64,000 bases of DNA from Cognatishimia activa (GCF_017798205.1 NZ_CP060010.1:1302001-1366000), one strand, 5' to 3'. Positions 37,923-63,172 are shown, numbered from the stretch's first letter. Program-made: numbers and translations. The notes: a model not told the origin generated them from the sequence alone.

Positions 37923-38379
37923 GGGGTGGTGCTTTCACAAAAGATGCGTCCTGTGTGAGCTAGTCACCGGACCTGACACAGCCCTGACAGAGCCGTCCAA
38001 ACGGGCCATTGATCTTGATTCGGAAACAAAGCCGACTGGGCCGTTTCGCGACTCGCAACAATGGTGGGCATCTGCAGGCTGGTGAAAATTCGCCTCTGAA
38101 CCGCGTCACTGAGTAAACCCATGATTGCATAGCATCCGGCCCACAAAGTTCCGTACCAATCAATTAAGAAATTGTAATTAAACAATAAAAATGGATTCAC
38201 TGCTCAATTTTACGGTTAATGTCTAGTTAACGAAACCGGAAATATTTTCACCAAATCCGAGTATACGCCCCAATTGCGCCATATTCTCCCTTATATAGTG
38301 GTCGGAAACGACAGCAGTCCTACAGGCGAATTCCATTGCAGAAGCGACCGGGCCCGTGGGCGAGCGAACGGAGACGAAT
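37923..38379. other. Divergent intergenic region, 457 bp
   Basis: This region separates the DUF1446 operon from the phosphorelay genes. The left half is GC-rich and has no gene despite overlapping short frames; the right half (38160-38300) is AT-rich and contains a perfect CtrA-type box at 38216-38230. Confidence 0.6.
38216..38230. promoter_or_regulatory. CtrA-type binding site upstream of receiver/GGDEF-like gene
   Basis: TTAA-TGTCTAG-TTAA followed by C, a perfect TTAA-N7-TTAAC box, 150 bp before the ATG at 38380. Confidence 0.65.
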
Positions 38380-39324
38380 ATGAAAATTCTGGCCGTCGAT
38401 GATGACGAACTGATCCGCGAAATTCTTGGTGCGACACTGGAAGCGCATGGCTACACGGATGTGACCATGGCCGATTGCGGCGAGGATGCCCTGCGCAAGA
38501 TCGCTGCGGCCCCGCAGCCGTTTGATGGGTTTATGTTCGACATCCAAATGCCAGGCATGGACGGCACCGAGCTCTGTCAGCAAGTGCGCCAGATGGAGCA
38601 GTACAAGAACTCTCCGGTGATCATGATCACCGCGATGAACAACAAAGAATATGTCGACCGCGCCTTCATGGCGGGTGCGACGGATTATGTGACCAAGCCC
38701 TTCGACACCACTGAACTGATGACCCGTATTCGTCTCGCGGATCGTCTTCAGCAAGAAGCGCGCAAGGCAGCAACGGCTCAGGCGGCAGCCCCTGCGGCGG
38801 CGGCAGCGGCCCCGAAAGCTCCGTTCCGTGATCCGGTCACCATCAAAGATGTCCGCGGCGTTGTGAAAAGCGCGGCACTCGACAACTATGTCATGCTGAT
38901 GCTGGAGCAGAAGCAATTCGCCATGGGCGCCTTTGCCCTGCAGATCCCTGAACTGGAAGCTGTGCACGCGGGATCCAGCTCTGAAGAATTCACCTATGTT
39001 GTCACTGACATCGCCGAAGTCATTTCGGATTGCCTTGTCGGGGCGCAAGCCTTCCTCAGCTATCTCGGTGGCGGCACCTTCGTCTGTGTTGGCGCGAAAG
39101 CAAAACTGCCTTCCGCAGATGCGATGCATGACGAGTTCGTCATGATGCTGAACGACCCTGACCTGGTCTATTGCGAAGAGGTACAGACCGGCTTCTCTGC
39201 CATCATTGGCGATGCAGCGGCACCTAAGCTGTTCGAGAAGCGTGGCGACCTGCGGTTCCTGGATCGTGCGGTCGAAAAACTTAAAGAAGCCGGCGGCTCC
39301 GGCCGTGCAGCCTTCGCGGCCTAA
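38380..39324 (+). CDS. Response regulator with degenerate GGDEF-like output
   Basis: The 314-residue protein has a good receiver domain (acidic DDD at 7-9, phospho-acceptor Asp54 in FMFDIQMPGMDG, MITAM, TKPFD), an Ala-rich linker (about 136-152) and a C-terminal domain that reads like a degenerate GGDEF. The active-site motif is LGGGTF near residue 230 rather than GGDEF, and the end (DRAVEKLKEAGGSGRAAF) matches the terminal helix of GGDEF domains. It should not make c-di-GMP but might bind a nucleotide or partner. GGAGA precedes the ATG. It starts a four-gene signalling block. Confidence 0.8.
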   Translation: MKILAVDDDELIREILGATLEAHGYTDVTMADCGEDALRKIAAAPQPFDGFMFDIQMPGMDGTELCQQVRQMEQYKNSPVIMITAMNNKEYVDRAFMAGATDYVTKPFDTTELMTRIRLADRLQQEARKAATAQAAAPAAAAAAPKAPFRDPVTIKDVRGVVKSAALDNYVMLMLEQKQFAMGAFALQIPELEAVHAGSSSEEFTYVVTDIAEVISDCLVGAQAFLSYLGGGTFVCVGAKAKLPSADAMHDEFVMMLNDPDLVYCEEVQTGFSAIIGDAAAPKLFEKRGDLRFLDRAVEKLKEAGGSGRAAFAA

Positions 39325-39423
39325 GCGCCTTTTTTCAAGCTATGACATCAGGCCGGGCGTGGACCTCGGCCTGTGATCTCCAAAGCAAAAACCGCGAAAA
39401 AATGTCATAAACCCCTGTTTTCT

Positions 39424-39438
39424 TTAACGGTCCTTTAA
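39424..39438. promoter_or_regulatory. CtrA-type binding site upstream of Hpt-kinase operon
   Basis: TTAA-CGGTCCT-TTAA, a perfect TTAA-N7-TTAA box, 95 bp before the GTG at 39533. Confidence 0.65.
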
Positions 39439-39532
39439 GAAAACAAGCCGTTTTTTTCACAGGTGATGATCATTTCGTGGTATATAAGAAGCATAATAAA
39501 CAATCAGCGCCAGAAGAGCGTTGAGGTAAAAT

Positions 39533-39910
39533 GTGGATGAGAGCAGTGCCATGATGCAAGGTACAGAGGCCGACAAGTCGGCCATCTTACAGGCCGGTTT
39601 GGCAAAAATTCGCGAACGATTCATCAGCTCAATCGATGGGCGGATCGAAGAGTTTTGCGCGCTCCTGGAACGTTTGGAAAATCCAGAGACAGAAGAATCT
39701 GCCTGCTTGGATATTCGGGCCGAAGCACACAAGCTTCACGGAATTTGCGGAAGTGTGGGGTTTCCCCGCATGGGCGCATTGGCAGCTCAGCTAGAGCAGC
39801 ACATTGATTCCCTGGTCGCCGGACCACGCCCCCTCAACACCGACTTTGTCGACGAGCTCCTCAACACGCTGATGGATGAGATGGAGCAAAGTTTGGATGG
39901 GGCCGCATAA
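39533..39910 (+). CDS. Hpt-domain phosphotransfer protein
   Basis: The 125-residue protein is a single Hpt four-helix bundle with the phosphorylatable His in AEAHKLHGICGSVGF (near residue 67). It should shuttle phosphate between a receiver and a kinase or regulator. It starts with GTG, with GAGG six bases upstream; no other start is as well placed. Its end overlaps the beginning of the large kinase gene by about 14 bp, so the two are coupled. The neighbouring receiver proteins are natural partners. Confidence 0.88.
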   Translation: MDESSAMMQGTEADKSAILQAGLAKIRERFISSIDGRIEEFCALLERLENPETEESACLDIRAEAHKLHGICGSVGFPRMGALAAQLEQHIDSLVAGPRPLNTDFVDELLNTLMDEMEQSLDGAA

Positions 39911-42900
39911 AGCAACCGTGATCCCTCGGCTTGAAGCCAACGGACACCGGCACTTTCTAATCATACTGATAGCCACAGCTTATCTGCTGTTGTCTGCGTC
40001 GTTCACGTCGGCGCAAAATGAGCAGCCTGTGTTCAGTGGGCAGACGGATCGTGTAGAACGCCGTATTCTGACCATCGGGGTTTTGACCACCGAGGGCGTT
40101 ACGCGCGCAATCGAAGCCTGGCGGCCCACGGTCGATCTGTTGAACCGCGAAGCTGATATCGTCGAAATGCCGGTACGGTTCGTCCTGAAGCCGCACACGC
40201 TCCCATCACTACGGCGTGCCGTCGAAAGCGGCGAGCTGGACTTCATTCTGAGCAACCCAGCGTTCTTTGTTTCCGCTGAAGTAGAGCATGGCGCGCGCGC
40301 TGTGCTGTCACGCGCCCGCATGTGGGACGACCGCACCTATGGTGAAATTGGGTCGGTTATCTTCACCAACCAAGATAGCCCCTATCGCAGTTTGTCGCAA
40401 TTGCGCGGTCGGCGCGTGATGGCTGTTGGTCAAGATGATTTCTCCGGCTGGTGGCTTGCGGAACAAGAGTTCCGGCGGCGGCGTCTGGAGCCTGATCGTA
40501 CGTTCAGTGAACTGATTTTCGCGGACGGCAACGAACGCGAAGTGGTTTACGCAGTGCAAACTGGCCTTGTGGACGCCGGTGTCGTGCGCGCTGGAGTGCT
40601 TGAATCCCTGCATCGCGGCGGCGTCATCGATATCGACGATTTTGCGCCGATGGAGCCGATCTTGCATCAGGGCTATCCCTTCATGTCGTCGACCGAGCTC
40701 TATCCGGAATGGCTCCTGTCTGCGATGCCGAATATCGACGAAACGACGCTGGCGCATGTCATCAACGTTCTGTTGAATGTAGAGCCGGATTCGGCGGAAT
40801 CTTTGGCCGCCGCAGGCGCGGTCTGGCAAGCGCCTCGAAACTATCAAAAGGTGCATGACCTTTTGATTTCATTGCGTGTTCGGCCTTATGAAAACTATGT
40901 GCTGCAGGCCGCAGGGCGGATCTATCAGAACTATCGCTTCTATATCCTGGCCTTCGTCAGCGCGATCCTTGCGTCTTTGGTCTTCCTGGTTTTCCAGTTG
41001 CGCCGCAACATGCTGATGGTCGAGATCAACAAGAACGTTCTGCAGTCCGAAATGAGATCCAAGGTCTTTTATCGGAGCGCCGTCGAAGAACATACCGTGT
41101 TCCTGATGATGGATACGCGTGGACGCATCACCCACGCCAACTCCAACTTCTGTGATACGACTGAACGCTTGGCCGAGGACCTGATCGGAACGCAATTGAT
41201 GGATATCCTGCCGGAGCATGAACAGATGATCCTGCAGAATGATGTTATGTCCTCGATGCGCGCTGGGCAGCCTTGGGATGGGCCGATGAAGGTCTATAAG
41301 GATGATGGCTCTATTGCCTGGGCGCAATGTACGATCATTCCGGTCTCGGGCGCCGAGGAAGAGCTGAGCGAAATCGCCGTAGTCGCGACTGATATGACTC
41401 AGACCCGCAAGGGCATCTCGGAAGCCACCTTTAACGACTCACTAGAGCTGATCGAGGATCAGGTGATCGTCTTCCGTCCGGAAAACTATGACCTGCTGTA
41501 TTGCAACAAAGCTGCCGACGAAATGTTCGTCGGACGTCGCGCCAATATCGATACTTGGCGCGAGCGTAAGGTGTCTCATTTCATCACAGACGACGATATG
41601 CGCAGCCTTAAGATGCGTTGTCAGGCGCTGCAGGAAGGTCCACAGAGCCGGATGACGTGGGAAGTGACCGCGCAGAATGGCACGCCCTATGAGATCAGCC
41701 TGGAATATGTCGAACCAGAGAACGACGAGCCGCGTTTCATCTCGATGTATCGCGATATCACCGCGCGCAAGGTGGCCGAAAAAGCCAAGAACGACTTTGT
41801 TGCCACCGTCAGCCACGAGCTGCGCACACCTCTGACCTCTATGAAGGGTGCCCTTGGACTGGCACTGTCAGGCGCAATCGGCGAGATGCCCGAGCAGATG
41901 AACAAGATGGTCTCGATGGCGTCCAACAACTGCGACAAGCTGGTGACGTTGATCAATGACATGCTCGACATCGAAAAGATGACCGAGGGCTCGATGGAGT
42001 TCGCTCTGGAGCAGGTTGATCTGGCCGAAGTTGTCGAAGAGGTCGTAGAAGCCAACAAGATGAAGGGCGAAAAACGCTCGGTCAACGTGCGCTACAATCT
42101 TGTCGAGGATGAAGAGGGCATGTTCACCCTCGGCGAACGAACCCGACTGGTTCAGATGCTTGAACATGTGGTCGACAACGCTGTTAAATTCTCCGACGAC
42201 GCCAGCGAAGTGATCGTCTCGCTGCTTGTGCACCGTGGACGCCTTCGTGTGTCTGTGCGCGACTTTGGCTGCGGTATTCCCACGGCCGCGCGCAGCACGA
42301 TCTTTGATAAGTTTACGCAAGCCGACATGGGCGATACGCGCGCTGCAGGAGGCACTGGCCTTGGCCTCGCGGTCGCCAAGGCGATCACCGAAGGTCACAA
42401 TGGCCGGATCTTCTTTGCCTCCGAAGAAGGTACGGGATCCGAGTTCTTCATCGATCTACCACGCTTGATTGGCGAAGACGTTGTTTCGCTTGAAGAGGCC
42501 AACAAAGCCGCTGAAGAAGCCGAAGCCATCGCGCGCGCTGAAGGTGACACCGATGGCGAGAAACGCAGTGTTCAAAGCACCGTTGCGATCAACTACGACT
42601 CCATGGAAGTCACCCAGTTCTCGCAAGTGGGCATGAATGCAGAACAGATCGAAGAAGAAGGCGAGGTCTTTGAAGGTCAGAGCTCTATTCAGAACCTGCT
42701 TGTGCAATTGCGTTCGGGCGGCTTTGACGTCGATATTGAATCTGGAAGCGTCTCGGTCGCGCAGATCGTAAGCGGCAAGGGCGTGGTCGGTCAGTCCACA
42801 GTCTTCAACTGGCTGAGCGATCAGGGCCGCAACCTTATCGCGGGTCTTACCGAACGCAATCAGCTGGCCAATATCCCAGTGTCTGTCATTCAGGCGAAGG

Positions 42901-43334
42901 CAGTGGACGAGAACCTGACCGACGCTTTGATGCTGAACGGCGTGCGCGCGAACCTCTACACCAACTGGCTGTCGACCCTTCCTGAACTTAGCGACAAAGA
43001 GGATCTCAAGTTTGACCTGATGGCGGTGGCGTCCAGTGATCTGCCCATTTTGGATGCAGAAGAGATCAATATGTCCTCGGTGACTGATGTCCAACAGGCA
43101 CTTGCGCTGGCCGGAATGGAAAAATTCGACGCTGTCCTTCATTTTGACACATTGGGATTGGCAAACTGTATGACAGTGATTCCCGTCGTCGGAGGCAAAC
43201 TGCCTGCGTCGGTTCCTGTCGTTCTGGTCGTATCCCAGACCGAAGCGCCAGAAGCAGAGCGTGGGGTCGTATCGAAATTTACAAGGTCCAACCCAGCAGG
43301 ACGAGGCAAATCGCGGCGCAGGTCGCGCGGCTAG
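39897..43334 (+). CDS. Large sensor histidine kinase with PhnD-like periplasmic domain, PAS domains and pseudo-receiver tail
   Basis: The roughly 1145-residue protein has an N-terminal membrane segment and a periplasmic PhnD-like ligand-binding domain (LTIGVLTTEG...ELDFILSNPAFF...LRGRRVMAV). A second transmembrane helix (FYILAFVSAILASLVFLVF) follows, then two PAS domains. The HisKA H-box is VSHELRTPLTS (His near 640), and the HATPase has DFGCGIP and GGTGLGLAVAKA. After an acidic linker the last 220 residues resemble a receiver (STVFNWLSDQGRNL) with Asn where the phospho-Asp would be. Start uncertain: 39897 has GGAG ten bases upstream; 39876 is the longest option. It probably senses a small anion or oxyanion in the periplasm. 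Confidence 0.88.
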   Translation: MGPHKATVIPRLEANGHRHFLIILIATAYLLLSASFTSAQNEQPVFSGQTDRVERRILTIGVLTTEGVTRAIEAWRPTVDLLNREADIVEMPVRFVLKPHTLPSLRRAVESGELDFILSNPAFFVSAEVEHGARAVLSRARMWDDRTYGEIGSVIFTNQDSPYRSLSQLRGRRVMAVGQDDFSGWWLAEQEFRRRRLEPDRTFSELIFADGNEREVVYAVQTGLVDAGVVRAGVLESLHRGGVIDIDDFAPMEPILHQGYPFMSSTELYPEWLLSAMPNIDETTLAHVINVLLNVEPDSAESLAAAGAVWQAPRNYQKVHDLLISLRVRPYENYVLQAAGRIYQNYRFYILAFVSAILASLVFLVFQLRRNMLMVEINKNVLQSEMRSKVFYRSAVEEHTVFLMMDTRGRITHANSNFCDTTERLAEDLIGTQLMDILPEHEQMILQNDVMSSMRAGQPWDGPMKVYKDDGSIAWAQCTIIPVSGAEEELSEIAVVATDMTQTRKGISEATFNDSLELIEDQVIVFRPENYDLLYCNKAADEMFVGRRANIDTWRERKVSHFITDDDMRSLKMRCQALQEGPQSRMTWEVTAQNGTPYEISLEYVEPENDEPRFISMYRDITARKVAEKAKNDFVATVSHELRTPLTSMKGALGLALSGAIGEMPEQMNKMVSMASNNCDKLVTLINDMLDIEKMTEGSMEFALEQVDLAEVVEEVVEANKMKGEKRSVNVRYNLVEDEEGMFTLGERTRLVQMLEHVVDNAVKFSDDASEVIVSLLVHRGRLRVSVRDFGCGIPTAARSTIFDKFTQADMGDTRAAGGTGLGLAVAKAITEGHNGRIFFASEEGTGSEFFIDLPRLIGEDVVSLEEANKAAEEAEAIARAEGDTDGEKRSVQSTVAINYDSMEVTQFSQVGMNAEQIEEEGEVFEGQSSIQNLLVQLRSGGFDVDIESGSVSVAQIVSGKGVVGQSTVFNWLSDQGRNLIAGLTERNQLANIPVSVIQAKAVDENLTDALMLNGVRANLYTNWLSTLPELSDKEDLKFDLMAVASSDLPILDAEEINMSSVTDVQQALALAGMEKFDAVLHFDTLGLANCMTVIPVVGGKLPASVPVVLVVSQTEAPEAERGVVSKFTRSNPAGRGKSRRRSRG

Positions 43335-43363
43335 TCCGAACCCTAGGAGAAAAGAGGCAAACC

Positions 43364-43762
43364 ATGGGTGAACTAAACAAAATCCTCCACGTCGAAGACG
43401 AGGCCGATATTCGCGAGATCGCGCATATGGCTCTTGAACTTATCGGCGGTTTCGAAGTTGCACAGGCCGAGCTTGGCACTGTTGCTCTGGATATCGTTGA
43501 GGGCTTTGCGCCTGACATGATCCTGATCGACGTTCAGATGCCAGAGTTGACGGGCCCAGAGACCCTGGAAGCGATCCGCAAGATGCCAGGCTTTGAGAAC
43601 ATCCCAGCGATCTACATGACTGCGAAAGTCAGTGAATCTGAAAAAGGGTCTTTGATTGGTCCGTTGGAACTGGGTCTGATTTCCAAGCCGTTTGATCCAA
43701 CCACTCTGGCCACGCAGATCCGTGCCATGTGGGACAAAGGTCTTTCCGCCGCAGCCGCTTAA
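43364..43762 (+). CDS. Single-domain response regulator
   Basis: The 132-residue protein is a lone receiver domain of CheY/DivK type with an acidic ED pair at 11-12, phospho-acceptor Asp56 (MILIDVQMPELTGPE), YMTAK and SKPFD. It follows the large kinase by 29 bp with AGGAG before the ATG. It has no output domain, so it probably passes phosphate to Hpt or binds the motor or another protein. Its TAA overlaps the TAA of the convergent FliJ-like gene within one TTAA. Confidence 0.93.
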   Translation: MGELNKILHVEDEADIREIAHMALELIGGFEVAQAELGTVALDIVEGFAPDMILIDVQMPELTGPETLEAIRKMPGFENIPAIYMTAKVSESEKGSLIGPLELGLISKPFDPTTLATQIRAMWDKGLSAAAA

Positions 43763-44196
43763 GACGATCCGCCCATCTGTCGCATATACCGGTTGCGGGC
43801 GACCTCTTCGAGCGCATTGGATTCTGCAAGATCCTCTTCTCGCCTCTTTTCATAGAGGGACTTGTCCAGAACGTTCTCGTTCGTGCGCACTTCGGCATAA
43901 GTTTCAAAAAGCCGCCCCTCGATCTGGGCGGCTTTTTCGTCGAGTTTCACCATTTCTCGATCAATGAAATCGCGCCTTTGCTGCACGGCTTGCAAAAACC
44001 CTGCAAGAAAAGGCGCCGCTTCTGGTGAGGTGATCTGGGTCTCTGTTTCCAAACGATGGGTCAGCGAATCCAATTCGCGTTGCAGATTGCCTTGCGCCGC
44101 GCGGATCACCCCCATTTTGGCGGCTTGCTCGTCCAACTCATGCTCTTTGATCCTTTGCAAGGTTGTCAGAGCTTTGATCCGACGCGCGCGGTCCAT
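43759..44196 (-). CDS. FliJ-like coiled-coil flagellar protein
   Basis: The 145-residue protein is nearly all heptad coiled coil, rich in Arg, Glu and Gln (LQRIKEHELDEQAAKMG, LDEKAAQIEGRLFETYAE). This is the size and character of FliJ, the export-apparatus stalk that binds FliI and escorts chaperones, and the gene lies 3 bp after motA. Sequence conservation is low in this family, so the name is tentative. No cysteine and no membrane segment are present. Confidence 0.65.
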   Translation of the reverse strand: MDRARRIKALTTLQRIKEHELDEQAAKMGVIRAAQGNLQRELDSLTHRLETETQITSPEAAPFLAGFLQAVQQRRDFIDREMVKLDEKAAQIEGRLFETYAEVRTNENVLDKSLYEKRREEDLAESNALEEVARNRYMRQMGGSS

Positions 44197-44199
44197 GGA

Positions 44200-45066
44200 T
44201 TAGGCTTCGGCCAGATCGGTGCGGGCTTCTTCCATCTCATAGAAGCTTGGCTGCAGGATGGTCGGGATATTGCCGCGGCCGATTTCTACGCAGATGGTCG
44301 GGCTGTGGTCATGCAGGATCGCCACAAAGATATCGCGGATCACGTTATAAAACGCGCCGTCCTGCTCTTCGATTGCGGTTAGTCGACCGGACAGAGGGGC
44401 CACGAAACAGTACGCCAAGAAAACCCCTAGGAAGGTGCCCACAAGCGCACCACCGATCATCTCACCCAGAACCGCAGGTGGTTTGTCAATCGAGCCCATG
44501 GTTTTGATAACACCCAAAACCGCCGCAACAATCCCAATCGCCGGGAGGCCGTCGGCCACAGTCTGAAGCCCATGGGCCGGGACCAGCACCTCGTGGTGGT
44601 GCTTCTTGAGCTTTTTGTTGATCACATCCTCAGTCTGGAACGGGTCGTCAAACTGCAGCGCAAGCATGCGGAAGCTGTCGGTGATCAGATCAATTGCATG
44701 GTGGTCATGCTGGATCCGTGGGAATTGCGAAAAGATCGCACTGTCGTGTGGGTTCTCGATATGCTCATCCAGCGCCAAGACGCCGTCGCGCTGATAGATC
44801 TTGGTCAGCCCATACATCAGGTTCAAAAGGTCGATGTAGTCGCTTTGCTTCCACTTAGGCCCCTTAAGGGCTTTGAAGACCGCCTTGAAGGTGCCGATCA
44901 CATCTCCAAAAGAGTTCGCGGCCACGTAGGCCCCAAGGGACGCGCCGCCGATCATCATGCCTTCGAAAGGAAGTGCGTGAAGGATGGGGCCCATTTCCCC
45001 GCCTGACAGCAGAAAGCCACCAAAGACAAGGCCGATAACAAGGATAAATCCGATAATGATGTTCAT
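44200..45066 (-). CDS. motA: Flagellar motor stator protein MotA
   Basis: The 288-residue protein has four transmembrane helices (about 3-21, 34-52, 170-190 and 203-224) with the large cytoplasmic loop between the second and third that touches FliG. PAHGLQTVADGLPAIGIVAAVLGVIKTM and GEMIGGALVGTFLGVFLAY are MotA signatures, including the conserved Pro of helix 3. With MotB it forms the proton-driven torque unit. motB is on the same strand but 1.4 kb away, separated by an unknown plus-strand gene. Confidence 0.96.
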   Translation of the reverse strand: MNIIIGFILVIGLVFGGFLLSGGEMGPILHALPFEGMMIGGASLGAYVAANSFGDVIGTFKAVFKALKGPKWKQSDYIDLLNLMYGLTKIYQRDGVLALDEHIENPHDSAIFSQFPRIQHDHHAIDLITDSFRMLALQFDDPFQTEDVINKKLKKHHHEVLVPAHGLQTVADGLPAIGIVAAVLGVIKTMGSIDKPPAVLGEMIGGALVGTFLGVFLAYCFVAPLSGRLTAIEEQDGAFYNVIRDIFVAILHDHSPTICVEIGRGNIPTILQPSFYEMEEARTDLAEA

Positions 45067-45223: not shown

Positions 45224-46378
45224 GTGAAAATAATCATGGCCTTTGGAGAGGATCCAGAGATGTCACGGCCCGAGCAGATCATGTCAGTCTTATTAGACGC
45301 AGAGGATATGCGTCTCATTCACCGCGCCTGGCCGGTGGATATGCGTCTTGGCGTATGTCTTATGCCAAGCGGCGATTGTCAGCTTATGTTATTTCATCAG
45401 GATGAAAGTCTCGGCTTTCCGGACCGGCTGAAAGACCATTTCGGTCTGCGCGCGTCAGAGATTTCCATTCATCCTAAGGTTGCAGGTTTTGCGACTCATC
45501 CGATGAAATATTCGGAAGAGCGCGCACTGGCTAATCTTTTGTCCGACAATCTCGAGTTAACCGAAGAGGCTTTGGACTATTCCGTAAACTTCGCCTACGC
45601 CCGCGAAGAGGGACTGGACCCGGTGAACTTCATGGGGCGCGAGGCCGCACATCCATCGGCTGCGAACAGTGTCATCGAAGACGCGGAACTCCTACCTGTA
45701 GATCCACCAGAACTCACCTTTTCAACGCGCCGCAAATCAGCCTCATCCAACAAGCCAATTCGCAATCTTCATTTCGATCTCAAACGCGAGGCGCAACGCT
45801 TCGAGGACGGCACTGGCAAAAAAGCCCCCAAGGCTCCGACCTTTGGTTTCAAATCCGCCGCGCATCTCTCGGCACTTGATACCGAGCCGAAAGATTTTGT
45901 CTTAAAGGCAACGCCGGCGGGTGGCATTACAATCACTGCGAAATCGGGCGTTGGCCCAAAGGTAACTGTACGGGACGCGCAGCAAGTGTTCTTGCGCGAC
46001 GACCGTAAACTCTTGGCGCTGCAGCTGGGTGAAACGACAGTTCCAGAAGAGATCAACCTGCTGCCCCACGCTGTGCCCTCTGCACTGCTGCAAGCTCTTG
46101 GCGGCAAGGTGGAGGCGGCCGAGGTTTTTGTTCAGGACGACTATGTCTATGCCACTTTGGGTCAACAACCTGTTGTCCAAGACAAGGCTATTTCAAAGAA
46201 AGCCGCGCCCAAACCTCTCAAGGTGCGTAAGCGCTGGGCGGCGCTGCGTCTTGTGGGGTTAACCGCTTTGACGATTGCCGGGATTTATCTGGTTCTCAAC
46301 AGCCCGTTGGGTGCTCCGCCAGAGCCGGTGGCGGTGGAAACACCGATCGATTGGCAGAGTTTTACCGGTAACCTCTAA
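45224..46378 (+). CDS. Unknown membrane-anchored protein between motA and motB
   Basis: This protein of up to 384 residues has no family I recognise. A compact N-terminal domain of about 120 residues (MRLIHRAWPVDMRLGVCLM...) is followed by a low-complexity linker with many Lys/Ala/Pro, a second folded region (about 225-310) and one transmembrane helix near the C-terminus (LRLVGLTALTIAGIYLVL) with a short tail. Starts: GTG 45224 (AGGT nearby) or ATG 45260 (GGAGAGG nine bases upstream). It is transcribed against motA and motB, yet its fixed place between them suggests a motor-related role. Confidence 0.75.
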   Translation: MKIIMAFGEDPEMSRPEQIMSVLLDAEDMRLIHRAWPVDMRLGVCLMPSGDCQLMLFHQDESLGFPDRLKDHFGLRASEISIHPKVAGFATHPMKYSEERALANLLSDNLELTEEALDYSVNFAYAREEGLDPVNFMGREAAHPSAANSVIEDAELLPVDPPELTFSTRRKSASSNKPIRNLHFDLKREAQRFEDGTGKKAPKAPTFGFKSAAHLSALDTEPKDFVLKATPAGGITITAKSGVGPKVTVRDAQQVFLRDDRKLLALQLGETTVPEEINLLPHAVPSALLQALGGKVEAAEVFVQDDYVYATLGQQPVVQDKAISKKAAPKPLKVRKRWAALRLVGLTALTIAGIYLVLNSPLGAPPEPVAVETPIDWQSFTGNL

Positions 46379-46434: not shown

Positions 46435-47769
46435 TTAGCGAAGAGCACTGCGCAGGTTTTCAAAGACTTGCTCGTCCAGAACCGTCGCTTCCGGCGCGCT
46501 TGGCAGGATCTCTTCGACCACGGATGCCTTTGGTGCTTCCATCGCCATGGTTTCTTCTTTGACCATCTCTGCCTCTACCGGAGTCTGTGCGGCTGGGGCA
46601 GGAGTGGCCTCGATCGTTTCCGTTGCCATGGCCTTTGCACCTTCTGGAACCTCAGACTTTTGATAGGCCAGCAGAACCTCGATGCGACGGTTGGATGGAT
46701 CCTTCGGTGCATCCGCGTTCAAAAGCTGCGTGTCCGCGAGGCCAGATACCCGAGAGATCCGGTCCTGTGTGACGCCAGTTTGCAGCAGCACACGGCGCAT
46801 TGCATTGGCGCGGTCCGAGCTCAGATCCCAGTTGTCATAAGACGTCTGGTTGGCAAATGGCACTGCATCGGTGTGACCAGAGATCACCATATCGTTTGGC
46901 AGTTTCGCCAGGCCTGCACCCAGTGTTTCCATCAGCATACGGGTCGCTTTGTTCATCTTGGCCTTACCAGAGGCAAACATCGCCTTACCGTCTTGATCCA
47001 TAATCTGCACCAGCAAGCCCTCATCGGTTTCCTTGAACACTATGTTTTCCTGCAAAGCGGCCAGCTCGGGCGCTTGTTGCATTGCTTGCTTCACTTCCGC
47101 TTCAAGGGCCGCAAAGCGCTCTTTGTCCGCAGTATGAGTCGGGTCTTGCTCGGGTACCGCTTGCGAATTCGCACCAACATGGGTGCTGTTTGGATCCAGA
47201 GCTTCGGATTCCTCCATAGTGCTGCCAGCGGCGACGTTTGGATTGACAGTACTTTCGTCGAATGCTGGGGCTTCCGCATCTGCAGACGTGGCGACTGCAC
47301 CGCCTTCGGACAGGCCTTCCGCCGAGGAATCTTCGACAAATTCAGGGCTTACGGCGCCAGCTGCAGGGTTCGTATGGTCACCCATATTAGTGCCACGCAT
47401 CTCCTCATCCGGGCTCGCGGTCTGAGTCACATCCATGATTTCCCAGGTTGCTGGGCTTGGGTCATCCACCTCACCGCGGTCCGAACCACGGGCCACAGTC
47501 GCACCATTTGACGCGGTCAATGTACCCGGAGGGCCCAAAGTCGCACCGTCCAGAACACCAGATCCACCTGGCATCGTCGCATCCGTGAAATATTCGGCAA
47601 TCCCGCGCAGCTTCTGTTCATCCGAGGATGACAGGATCCACATCAGCAGAAAGAACGCCATCATCGCGGTCATAAAGTCCGCATACGCAACTTTCCATGC
47701 GCCGCCGTGGTGTCCATGCCCTTCGACGACTTCGATCTTTTTAATAATCGTTTGGCCTTTGGCTGCCAT
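46435..47769 (-). CDS. motB: Flagellar motor stator protein MotB, OmpA-type
   Basis: The 444-residue protein has a cytoplasmic start, one transmembrane helix with the proton-binding Asp in AYADFMTAMMAFFLLMWIL, a long acidic periplasmic linker (about residues 60-270), and a C-terminal OmpA/peptidoglycan-binding domain (ISGHTDAVPF, SSDRANAMRRVLL, RRIEVLL). Ala-, Glu- and Pro-rich tail follows. It is longer than enteric MotB because of the linker. The ATG at 47769 with GAGG upstream fits the MAAKGQTIIKK start usual in this group. Confidence 0.95.
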   Translation of the reverse strand: MAAKGQTIIKKIEVVEGHGHHGGAWKVAYADFMTAMMAFFLLMWILSSSDEQKLRGIAEYFTDATMPGGSGVLDGATLGPPGTLTASNGATVARGSDRGEVDDPSPATWEIMDVTQTASPDEEMRGTNMGDHTNPAAGAVSPEFVEDSSAEGLSEGGAVATSADAEAPAFDESTVNPNVAAGSTMEESEALDPNSTHVGANSQAVPEQDPTHTADKERFAALEAEVKQAMQQAPELAALQENIVFKETDEGLLVQIMDQDGKAMFASGKAKMNKATRMLMETLGAGLAKLPNDMVISGHTDAVPFANQTSYDNWDLSSDRANAMRRVLLQTGVTQDRISRVSGLADTQLLNADAPKDPSNRRIEVLLAYQKSEVPEGAKAMATETIEATPAPAAQTPVEAEMVKEETMAMEAPKASVVEEILPSAPEATVLDEQVFENLRSALR

Positions 47770-47923
47770 CGTTTCTTGCCTCATATCGCCGGTTTGACCC
47801 GGTTGATTCCCGTAAACCGGCTTTTGCGCGGTTTTTCTCGGGAACAGATATGAAGGGGAACCGTGCCCCTAGAGGGGCGCGATTAAGAAAAGATTGTGGC
47901 AGGTCGGGAAACAATTGCGGCGC

Positions 47924-49103: not shown

Positions 49104-49811
49104 ATGCTTGGCAAACCGACATATGCGATTGTTTTAGATCGGGATAATGCGCGAGCGCTATCCTTGCGGCATATGTTTTCGGTGATTTGCGGTGAAACTT
49201 GTGAGGTTTATTCAAGCGTCGAGGCCTTTTTTGACCACGTCAGCACGGATGTGTCCCCGCAAGTCATTCTCGTGGGTGATATTCCAGATCGGGCTGATGC
49301 GGTCAAAGCAATTGCGGATGCTATCCCAGGATTTCTGATCGCAATTGAACAGTCAGACGGCGACCTTTCTGTCGAAGATGCATTCTTGCAAGGAGCCGAT
49401 GATGTGCTCCGCGTGCCTTATACCCTGCGGGAATTGGCTTTGCGGCTGCGCGCAAGGATTGGGTTGCTCGGTTCTTCAGAGAACGACAATCTGTTCTTGG
49501 ACGCAACACATTGGGGCGACGAAGCATATATCTCCGAACGCGCCGGCTTAACCGAGTCCGAAGCGCATATCGTGCACGTTCTCATGAAGCATAGCGGCAA
49601 AATCGTTTCGCGAGATGCCCTGAGCTTAGAGATTGATGGGCGCGCTTGGGATTATGGTGACCGAAAATTTGACGTCCACGTTGCAAAGATCCGCAAGAAA
49701 TTAACCTCGACATTTGGTGACAATATCTCTGTTCAGACCGTGCGGTCGGCTGGTTATATTCTGTCGATCGACGAAATTGGGCAGGCCGAATTAGCGGAAA
49801 ATCAAATTTGA
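49104..49811 (+). CDS. OmpR-type DNA-binding regulator with degenerate receiver
   Basis: The 235-residue protein has a receiver-like first half and an OmpR winged helix (LTESEAHIVHVLMKHSGKIVSRDALS, KFDVHVAKIRKKL, VRSAGYIL). The expected phospho-Asp position reads VILVGDIPD, with Gly where the acceptor Asp usually stands, and the acidic cluster at the N-terminus is reduced to LDRDN. It probably acts without phosphorylation. AGAGGG precedes the ATG. Position before fliK-flgD suggests a flagellar activator, comparable to FtcR-type regulators in other alphaproteobacteria. Confidence 0.85.
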   Translation: MLGKPTYAIVLDRDNARALSLRHMFSVICGETCEVYSSVEAFFDHVSTDVSPQVILVGDIPDRADAVKAIADAIPGFLIAIEQSDGDLSVEDAFLQGADDVLRVPYTLRELALRLRARIGLLGSSENDNLFLDATHWGDEAYISERAGLTESEAHIVHVLMKHSGKIVSRDALSLEIDGRAWDYGDRKFDVHVAKIRKKLTSTFGDNISVQTVRSAGYILSIDEIGQAELAENQI

Positions 49812-62329: not shown

Positions 62330-63082
62330 TTAGGCGCGCGCCTCAAGTCGCATGCCAGAGCTGGTCAGCGCCGGAATTGGGGTCACATCGTCCAGAACAT
62401 CTGGGGCGCTCAGCTTATAGCCGCGACCGTGGATGGTCTCGATATACTGCGCGCCGGTGTCAGCCGCCGAGGCGATTTTCTTGCGCAACTTACAGATGTA
62501 AACGTCGATCACCTTGTCAAAAGGCTGATCTGCGCTCATGCCATAGACCGCATCGTAGATGGCGTTCTTGGAAATCACCTTGTTCGAGTTCAGCGCTAGG
62601 TGCTGGAAAATCGAATGTTCGCGCTTGGACAGCTTGATACGGGTGCCCGAAACTATTGGGTCGCGACCGTCAAAGAAGGCGGTGACTTCGCCGACGCTGA
62701 TGCTTTCGGCAGCGTGGCCGTGGAAGCGACGCACGATAGAATTGATCCGCGACAGCACTTCGCCACCTTTGATCGGGCTGACGATCACGTCGTCTGCACC
62801 GCGATCCAAAGCGGCTGCGGTGTCCGCAGAATTCCGGAAATCCCGCAGGATTATCAAGGGGTTCTCGCATCCTGCATGACGCACCGCGCGGATTTGGCGG
62901 TGGGTGTTCACAGATTCTCCGATCAGAATGGCGCGATGTTCGCTGCCCGTCTGAGTCAAAGGCGCAAGGCCCGTTTCAAAAAATTCTTCGCCCACAAAGA
63001 GAGGTTGCAGACCCGCGTTTTCCAACTCGGATGCTAGTGATGCTCGACGTTTCTCTCGTGGCTCATAAACATAGGCGCGCAT
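62330..63082 (-). CDS. CtrA-like winged-helix regulator with degenerate receiver
   Basis: The 250-residue protein has a receiver-like first half and an OmpR-type winged helix (LSKREHSIFQHLALNSNKVISKNAIYDAVYG, then IDVYICKLRKKIA, IETIHGRGYKL). The DNA-binding half closely resembles that of CtrA, so it may recognise a TTAA-type site. The acceptor position reads ILIGESV, so the phospho-Asp is absent. The ATG at 63082 follows GGAGG. It faces flgI across a gap holding a CtrA-type box, which may be its own target. A homolog of flagellar regulator FtcR or a CtrA paralog. Confidence 0.85.
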   Translation of the reverse strand: MRAYVYEPREKRRASLASELENAGLQPLFVGEEFFETGLAPLTQTGSEHRAILIGESVNTHRQIRAVRHAGCENPLIILRDFRNSADTAAALDRGADDVIVSPIKGGEVLSRINSIVRRFHGHAAESISVGEVTAFFDGRDPIVSGTRIKLSKREHSIFQHLALNSNKVISKNAIYDAVYGMSADQPFDKVIDVYICKLRKKIASAADTGAQYIETIHGRGYKLSAPDVLDDVTPIPALTSSGMRLEARA

Positions 63083-63172
63083 AGCGTCCTCCGTTCCTGC
63101 CATTTTTGTTATTCTTGACGGCTAGCAAGGATTAACCAGCCGTTCAACTATAAAAAGAATAAATCACAAAGA

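Follow-up and report, generated by a model that had tools for sequence, protein, structure and literature searches.

What might a set of phosphorelay genes be doing beside the flagellar cluster of Cognatishimia activa, what would it sense, and in which direction would phosphate travel through it? In the 64-kb stretch of DNA analyzed here (the window), four intact genes follow one another in the same orientation on the plus strand, and a first-pass annotation had described them as a receiver/GGDEF-like regulator, an Hpt protein, a kinase with a PhnD-like sensor, and a lone receiver. Gene calls and Pfam domains agree with that description, except that Pfam gives RR1 no GGDEF domain, and the claimed position beside the flagellar cluster held as well, with genes for a FliJ-like protein, MotA, and MotB adjoining the RR2 end. 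The host genome (3.25 Mb in one contig, 99.4% complete) contains one flagellar cluster, judging from its five Flg_bbr_C matches, all of which fall in that cluster. The features of the block and its surroundings are as follows:

38216-38230, no strand: putative CtrA palindrome TTAA-N7-TTAA, TTAATGTCTAGTTAA, 164 bp upstream of RR1
38380-39324, plus strand: RR1, a receiver with a pseudo-GGDEF output domain, 314 aa (Pfam Response_reg, E 2.7e-29)
39424-39438, no strand: putative CtrA palindrome TTAA-N7-TTAA, TTAACGGTCCTTTAA, 127 bp upstream of hpt
39551-39910, plus strand: Hpt histidine phosphotransfer protein, 119 aa (Pfam Hpt, E 5.7e-12)
39876 (or, from a GTG, 39918) to 43334, plus strand: sensor histidine kinase (Pfam Phosphonate-bd, PAS, HisKA, and HATPase_c)
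43364-43762, plus strand: RR2, a single-domain response regulator, 132 aa (Pfam Response_reg, E 1.8e-19)
43759-44196, minus strand: FliJ-like protein, the adjoining flagellar gene (context)
44200-45066, minus strand: MotA stator, a neighbor of the block that is kept in relatives (context)
46435-47784, minus strand: MotB (context)

Together, these genes provide the complete residue set of a phosphorelay, namely, a kinase with HisKA and HATPase_c domains, the Hpt histidine, and two receivers that both have the acceptor Asp and the Lys. The acceptors (RR1 D54, Hpt H60, and RR2 D56) are kept in relatives, and the acidic pocket of RR2 is intact, with D56, T/A, and K108. The block Hpt is the only small, stand-alone Pfam Hpt protein found in the genome.

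Conservation in relatives, which had been named beforehand as one of two points on which the block could be refuted, was found: the order RR1-Hpt-PhnD kinase-RR2, followed by convergent fliJ-like, motA, another gene, and motB, recurs in five other genomes or plasmids (G138, from the same genus; Antarcticimicrobium sediminis; G266; Rhodobacteraceae MAG DT_100; and plasmid P4 of Sulfitobacter mediterraneus SC7-37, where the block genes are JNX02_RS18470-RS18485), and mucR follows motB in those full-block loci that are long enough to include it. Since the block genes fall into one clade in each tree (support of 1.0 for RR1, 0.986 for RR2, and 0.997 for the kinase transmitter), they appear to have been inherited together; conserved gene order and clades thus rule out chance neighbors as an account of the block. 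The flagellar cluster of the window matches, by homology and shared gene content, the pMaD5 cluster of Marinovum algicola and the flagellar plasmids of Sulfitobacter. The pMaD5 cluster is the fla2 reference of a Rhodobacterales survey (PMC12363192); the survey's tree used FlhA/FliF/FlgH/FlgI, and the fla2 assignment made here is one of homology and gene content. Because the block is absent from both M. algicola pMaD5 and Loktanella salsilacus, we ruled it out as a universal fla2 component; on this comparison, a single branch of a mobile fla2-type cluster carries it as an accessory. The flagellar plasmid family of S. mediterraneus and its S. pontiacus homologues have been described before (PMC13386836), and in the portion of that text that was searched, no mention of the block's signaling genes was found.

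Both CtrA boxes claimed for the block, one before the first gene and another before the Hpt-kinase pair, proved to be exact palindromes. TTAA-N7-TTAA occurs five times in the window, against 0.25 times expected from shuffles, and 24 times in the whole 3.25-Mb genome, which also encodes ctrA (a strong match, at 419.9 bits). One of these 24 boxes sits just upstream of ctrA itself, which supports reading the palindromes as CtrA sites. At all six full-block loci, a box is present about 100 to 140 bp upstream of hpt, with a different N7 spacer in each, and at three of the six, including G138 and S. mediterraneus plasmid P4, a box is present upstream of RR1 also; in random 460-bp windows of related loci, the frequency is about 0.9%. 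The six loci are kin and do not represent six independent events, and it is the spacers that have diverged and the half-sites that have not. The block is, therefore, probably under CtrA control, through boxes conserved across relatives.

The output end of the block was approached through RR1. Although Pfam did not recognize a GGDEF domain in the window protein (and called one in 5 of 43 homologues), the GGDEF-like label was borne out by the fold: an AF2 model of RR1 (pLDDT 91.8) matched the GGDEF domain of FimX (3hva_A; VIA Z 14.0, rmsd 2.9, 146 aligned), and a profile built from 43 homologues of the output domain (about residues 152 to 309 in RR1, with the motif G230-x-G232-x-F234) found GGDEF domains only among its PDB matches. 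With a receiver followed by a GGDEF-fold domain, RR1 resembles PleD, WspR, and PopA, and the GGDEF domain of PopA is, like that of RR1, degenerate at its active site. RR1 differs from these proteins in having one receiver, in the catalytic acidic position of GG[D/E]EF, which is Gly in all 43 homologues (G-x-G-x-F), and in the RxxD I-site, which was not found before the motif (G221 and A224 in RR1; these positions vary among homologues). We therefore rejected RR1 as an active diguanylate cyclase, its motif lacking the catalytic acid, and, on the same motif evidence, as a PopA-like c-di-GMP receptor; given the uniform Gly and the missing RxxD, we would not expect it to bind c-di-GMP in the way PopA does. 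Since the fold has been kept while the active site has been uniformly lost, RR1 should act via contact with a protein. No published function was found for receiver/pseudo-GGDEF regulators paired with Hpt, nor did we find a characterized system with this gene set, in line with the first-pass annotation.

At the input end, the kinase divides into the following parts:

40074-40811, plus strand: PhnD/TtrS-like domain, predicted to be periplasmic (Pfam Phosphonate-bd, PF12974, E 2.8e-32), with a TM segment on either side
41100-41402, plus strand: PAS domain (Pfam); a weaker second PAS domain is also present
41784-41990, plus strand: HisKA domain (E 5.5e-15)
42135-42464, plus strand: HATPase_c domain (E 1.9e-24)
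42465-43331, plus strand: tail, residues 865 to 1152, ending in GVVSKF and then an Arg-rich end (43263-43331)

The two hydrophobic segments flanking the PhnD-like domain, read as transmembrane from the sequence, are the reason why this domain should be periplasmic. It scored 125.5 bits against the TtrS model (positions 8 to 258; 154.7 bits for the whole kinase, with a cutoff of 750) and 46.4 bits against PhnD (TIGR03431; cutoff, 261.1) and, by these scores, is nearer to TtrS-type kinases than to PhnD, below both cutoffs. In TtrS and ThsS, PhnD-like periplasmic domains are able to sense sulfur oxyanions and, as in the block, such a domain is carried on a membrane histidine kinase (PMC5408782). 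However, the block kinase has PAS domains and a long tail and scores far under 750 bits, its partners are an Hpt protein and two receivers without a DNA-binding domain rather than TtrR, and no reductase genes are found in the block. Similarly, AioX and ArrX have PhnD-type domains that sense arsenic oxyanions, and the AioX/ArrX/ArxX group shares with the block kinase the use of this fold for sensing instead of transport (PMC5908839), whereas in the block the domain and the kinase form one polypeptide. Among solved structures, ArrX is the closest in sequence, and PtxB is another of the nearest. The PhnD/AioX-type oxyanion pocket is marked by conserved Ser, Ser, His, and Tyr residues; in a weak alignment to ArrX and PtxB, 8 of 8 orthologues have Asp/Glu in place of one conserved anion-binding Ser, and an invariant Arg lies nearby. 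The earlier guess that the ligand is phosphate, phosphite, or phosphonate finds no support in the replaced pocket residue in that weak alignment or in the PhnD score of 46 bits against 125 for TtrS, and a protein or a nonanionic compound may be the ligand on an equal footing with an oxyanion.

The tail of the kinase had been called receiver-like, and here receiver homology was not detected: Pfam matched no family to residues 865 to 1152, hhalign gave a probability of 3.3% against three related kinases whose tails hold two receivers and 1.6% against RR2, and a fold search with a poor AF2 model (pLDDT 55.6) returned nothing. The tail may represent two decayed receivers or some other thing. Its best-conserved part is the C-terminal GVVSKF, in most cases followed by the Arg-rich end, which is retained where the remainder has been deleted.

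How, then, could these parts work together? Canonical relay chemistry proceeds from kinase to receiver to Hpt to receiver, and in phosphorelays of the Spo0F/Spo0B type, kinase, lone receiver, Hpt, and output regulator are separate proteins. The block is alike in this respect and differs in that its output regulator carries a dead GGDEF domain and no DNA-binding domain. With moderate confidence, we lean toward a His-Asp-His-Asp multistep phosphorelay that belongs to one fla2-type branch, is attached to its flagellum, would be transcribed by CtrA alongside it, and has RR1 as its output. The PhnD/TtrS-fold domain would detect a ligand or partner protein in the periplasm and shift the kinase/phosphatase balance, after which phosphate would pass from the membrane kinase to one receiver, on to Hpt, and then to the other receiver. 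RR1, predicted neither to bind DNA nor to have cyclase activity, would most likely be the end point, with its pseudo-GGDEF domain binding a protein, and the likely effect would be to tune flagellar function, or a decision between swimming and sticking, in cells without chemotaxis. Phosphotransfer and its order, an output that works via protein contact, and a connection with motility are what we infer here from the genes.

The block is also one version of something wider. Of 197 genomes sampled from the order, 62 (in 29 of 88 genera) contained a match to the RR1 output domain; named carriers are nearly all Rhodobacteraceae or Roseobacteraceae, and remoter hits match mainly the receiver. Across 92 loci, an Hpt gene lies directly downstream of RR1 in 62 of 63 cases, and the RR1-Hpt and kinase-RR2 pairs are on opposite strands in 38 of 52. 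The sensor parts of the kinases vary among module loci, making the flagellar block one version, with another sensor and with CtrA boxes, of a receiver/pseudo-GGDEF and Hpt family that would extend through the Rhodobacterales and is mostly missed by Pfam. We considered, and rejected, the idea that CtrA controls the generic module broadly, a full box being present upstream of 8 of 117 RR1 genes, where about 1 was expected (a weak excess). In most relatives, the module is located away from the flagellar genes tested, and motility is therefore probably not its ancestral role. This distribution also lends something to the idea of a general cell-state phosphorelay that is merely parked by the flagellar cluster and acts on c-di-GMP or CtrA via RR1, with nothing specific to the flagellum; the GGDEF fold of RR1 and the three other GGDEF proteins encoded in the genome, as possible targets, fit such a role too. 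We nevertheless consider it unlikely, since every close orthologue of the PhnD kinase that was found, in several genera, lies next to this flagellar cluster, and since the kinase remains there even without the other three genes: in two Sulfitobacter-type lineages, S. pontiacus and G036/G070, it is kept beside motA, and RR1, Hpt, and RR2 are not adjacent. These two lineages also count against the relay that we favor. An RR1-Hpt pair 9 kb from the PhnD kinase in S. pontiacus was rejected as a relic of the block, because the RR1 of that pair is not a member of the block clade.

Within the favored flagellum-linked relay, the order of the two receivers deserves separate treatment. Gene pairing suggests that RR2 comes first and RR1 last, and the lone receiver is mostly found right behind the kinase (46 of 55 cases among the 92 loci), which argues against the reverse order, i.e., from kinase to RR1 receiver to Hpt to RR2, with a CheY-like RR2 acting on the motor or on the RR1 pseudo-GGDEF domain. 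Co-variation speaks in part for the other order. In a tree-distance comparison over 45 loci, an indirect measure in which shared rates can produce the same signal, the RR1 receiver co-varied with Hpt beyond what is shared with the other genes (partial r of 0.40 with a permutation p of 0.001), a signal that also fits the relay we favor, and it co-varied with the kinase at a partial r of 0.285 (p 0.007). The largest value linked RR2 to the pseudo-GGDEF domain, at a partial r of 0.60 (p 0.001), or 0.50 when the flagellar clade was left out; nothing clear was seen between RR2 and Hpt or the kinase. In addition, many relatives have RR2 although the same locus holds a hybrid kinase with a receiver of its own. 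These two observations make it less obvious that RR2 is a receiver detached from the kinase and suggest that it may not be the relay intermediate. The co-variation gives room to the reverse order or to an action of RR2 on the output domain of RR1. The reverse order would also suit the location of RR2 next to fliJ-like and motA and a genome whose missing CheW and MCP leave a gap that a motor-directed regulator would fill. Given the position of RR2 behind the kinase, the indirectness of the co-variation, and a module found mostly at a distance from the flagellar genes tested, we judge the reverse order with such a CheY-like end point improbable. Either receiver may be the first to take phosphate from the kinase.

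That gap was looked at directly. CheW and MCP domains were found neither in the C. activa genome nor in the four other full-block genomes scanned, whereas 111 of 197 genomes in the order carry CheW; five of five full-block genomes without CheW would have a chance of about 2% if genomes were independent, which they are not, and we regard the result as suggestive. Without CheW and MCP, the flagellum would otherwise have no sensor, making the block a candidate for its input. A stronger form of this proposal would make the phosphorelay the dedicated sensory input of the flagellum in fla2-bearing Rhodobacterales that lack any CheA/CheW/MCP, with a PBP-type kinase signaling to Hpt and the lone receiver and, with the pseudo-GGDEF partner, to the motor or stator in place of chemotaxis, and with the whole unit moving between genomes together with the cluster; in this full form, we find it decidedly doubtful.

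Finally, the CtrA boxes tie the block to the CtrA regulon and, hence, to the CckA-ChpT-CtrA pathway, which differs from the block in that the latter has a separate kinase and a Pfam-type Hpt. In Cereibacter sphaeroides, the CtrA-activated single-domain regulator Osp inhibits CckA directly (PMC9430884), and RR2, a single-domain protein under probable CtrA control whose weaker matches include CckA receivers, could be imagined to do the same. However, Osp lacks two Mg-binding acidic residues and the Lys, both of which are present in RR2, and osp is described as monocistronic (PMC9430884), whereas RR2 follows kinase and Hpt genes. With its phosphorylation pocket intact, RR2 was ruled out as an Osp, and Osp-like inhibition of CckA by RR2 seems very improbable. 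Within a major group of marine bacteria, fla2-type flagella spread horizontally, and several of their carriers have no chemotaxis genes; the block is a conserved, CtrA-marked candidate for the control of these flagella. Where the block resides on a plasmid-borne cluster, it can be deleted as a single unit.

Across the wider RR1/Hpt/kinase/RR2 family in Rhodobacterales (45 loci), the evolution of the lone receiver RR2 tracked the pseudo-GGDEF domain of RR1, the receiver/pseudo-GGDEF protein, more than it tracked the kinase or Hpt (partial r of 0.60), a co-evolution hinting that RR2 may contact that domain. The following features were also noted (window positions unless stated otherwise):

43263-43331, GVVSKF and basic tail at the C terminus of the kinase with the PhnD/TtrS-like domain
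45224-46378, +, protein encoded between motA and motB
49104-49811, +, OmpR/CtrA-type DNA-binding regulator inside the flagellar cluster
62330-63103, -, OmpR/CtrA-type DNA-binding regulator inside the flagellar cluster
G000:C1:1396769-1397842 (L063 6769-7842), second receiver/pseudo-GGDEF paralogue of RR1 in the genome, 31 kb past the window

The kinase C terminus is conserved in PhnD kinases (loci L170, L171, L179, and L180); GVVSKF, with the basic tail behind it in most of these kinases, is kept even when the preceding 200 residues are deleted. Possibly, this terminus serves in localization or as a degron.

Flagellar genes were present in C. activa (G000), in four other genomes with the full block (G138, G266, Antarcticimicrobium sediminis, and MAG DT_100), and in G070, which keeps only the kinase beside motA, while no CheW or MCP domain was found genome-wide in any of the six; judging from gene content, these organisms apparently have a flagellum without a chemotaxis system. 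Neither OmpR/CtrA-type regulator has a receiver domain detectable by Pfam, and both have homologues on Sulfitobacter flagellar plasmids and Marinovum algicola pMaD5. The protein encoded between motA and motB, without a match in Pfam or NCBIfam, has a homologue near motA in every cluster of the mobile fla2 type examined.

Neither an Hpt nor a kinase gene was found adjoining the RR1 paralogue, which has its own perfect CtrA palindrome (TTAA-N7-TTAA) at 1396517, ~250 bp upstream. Another perfect palindrome, at G000:C1:3079303 (beside L185), lies directly upstream of ctrA, a position consistent with autoregulation.
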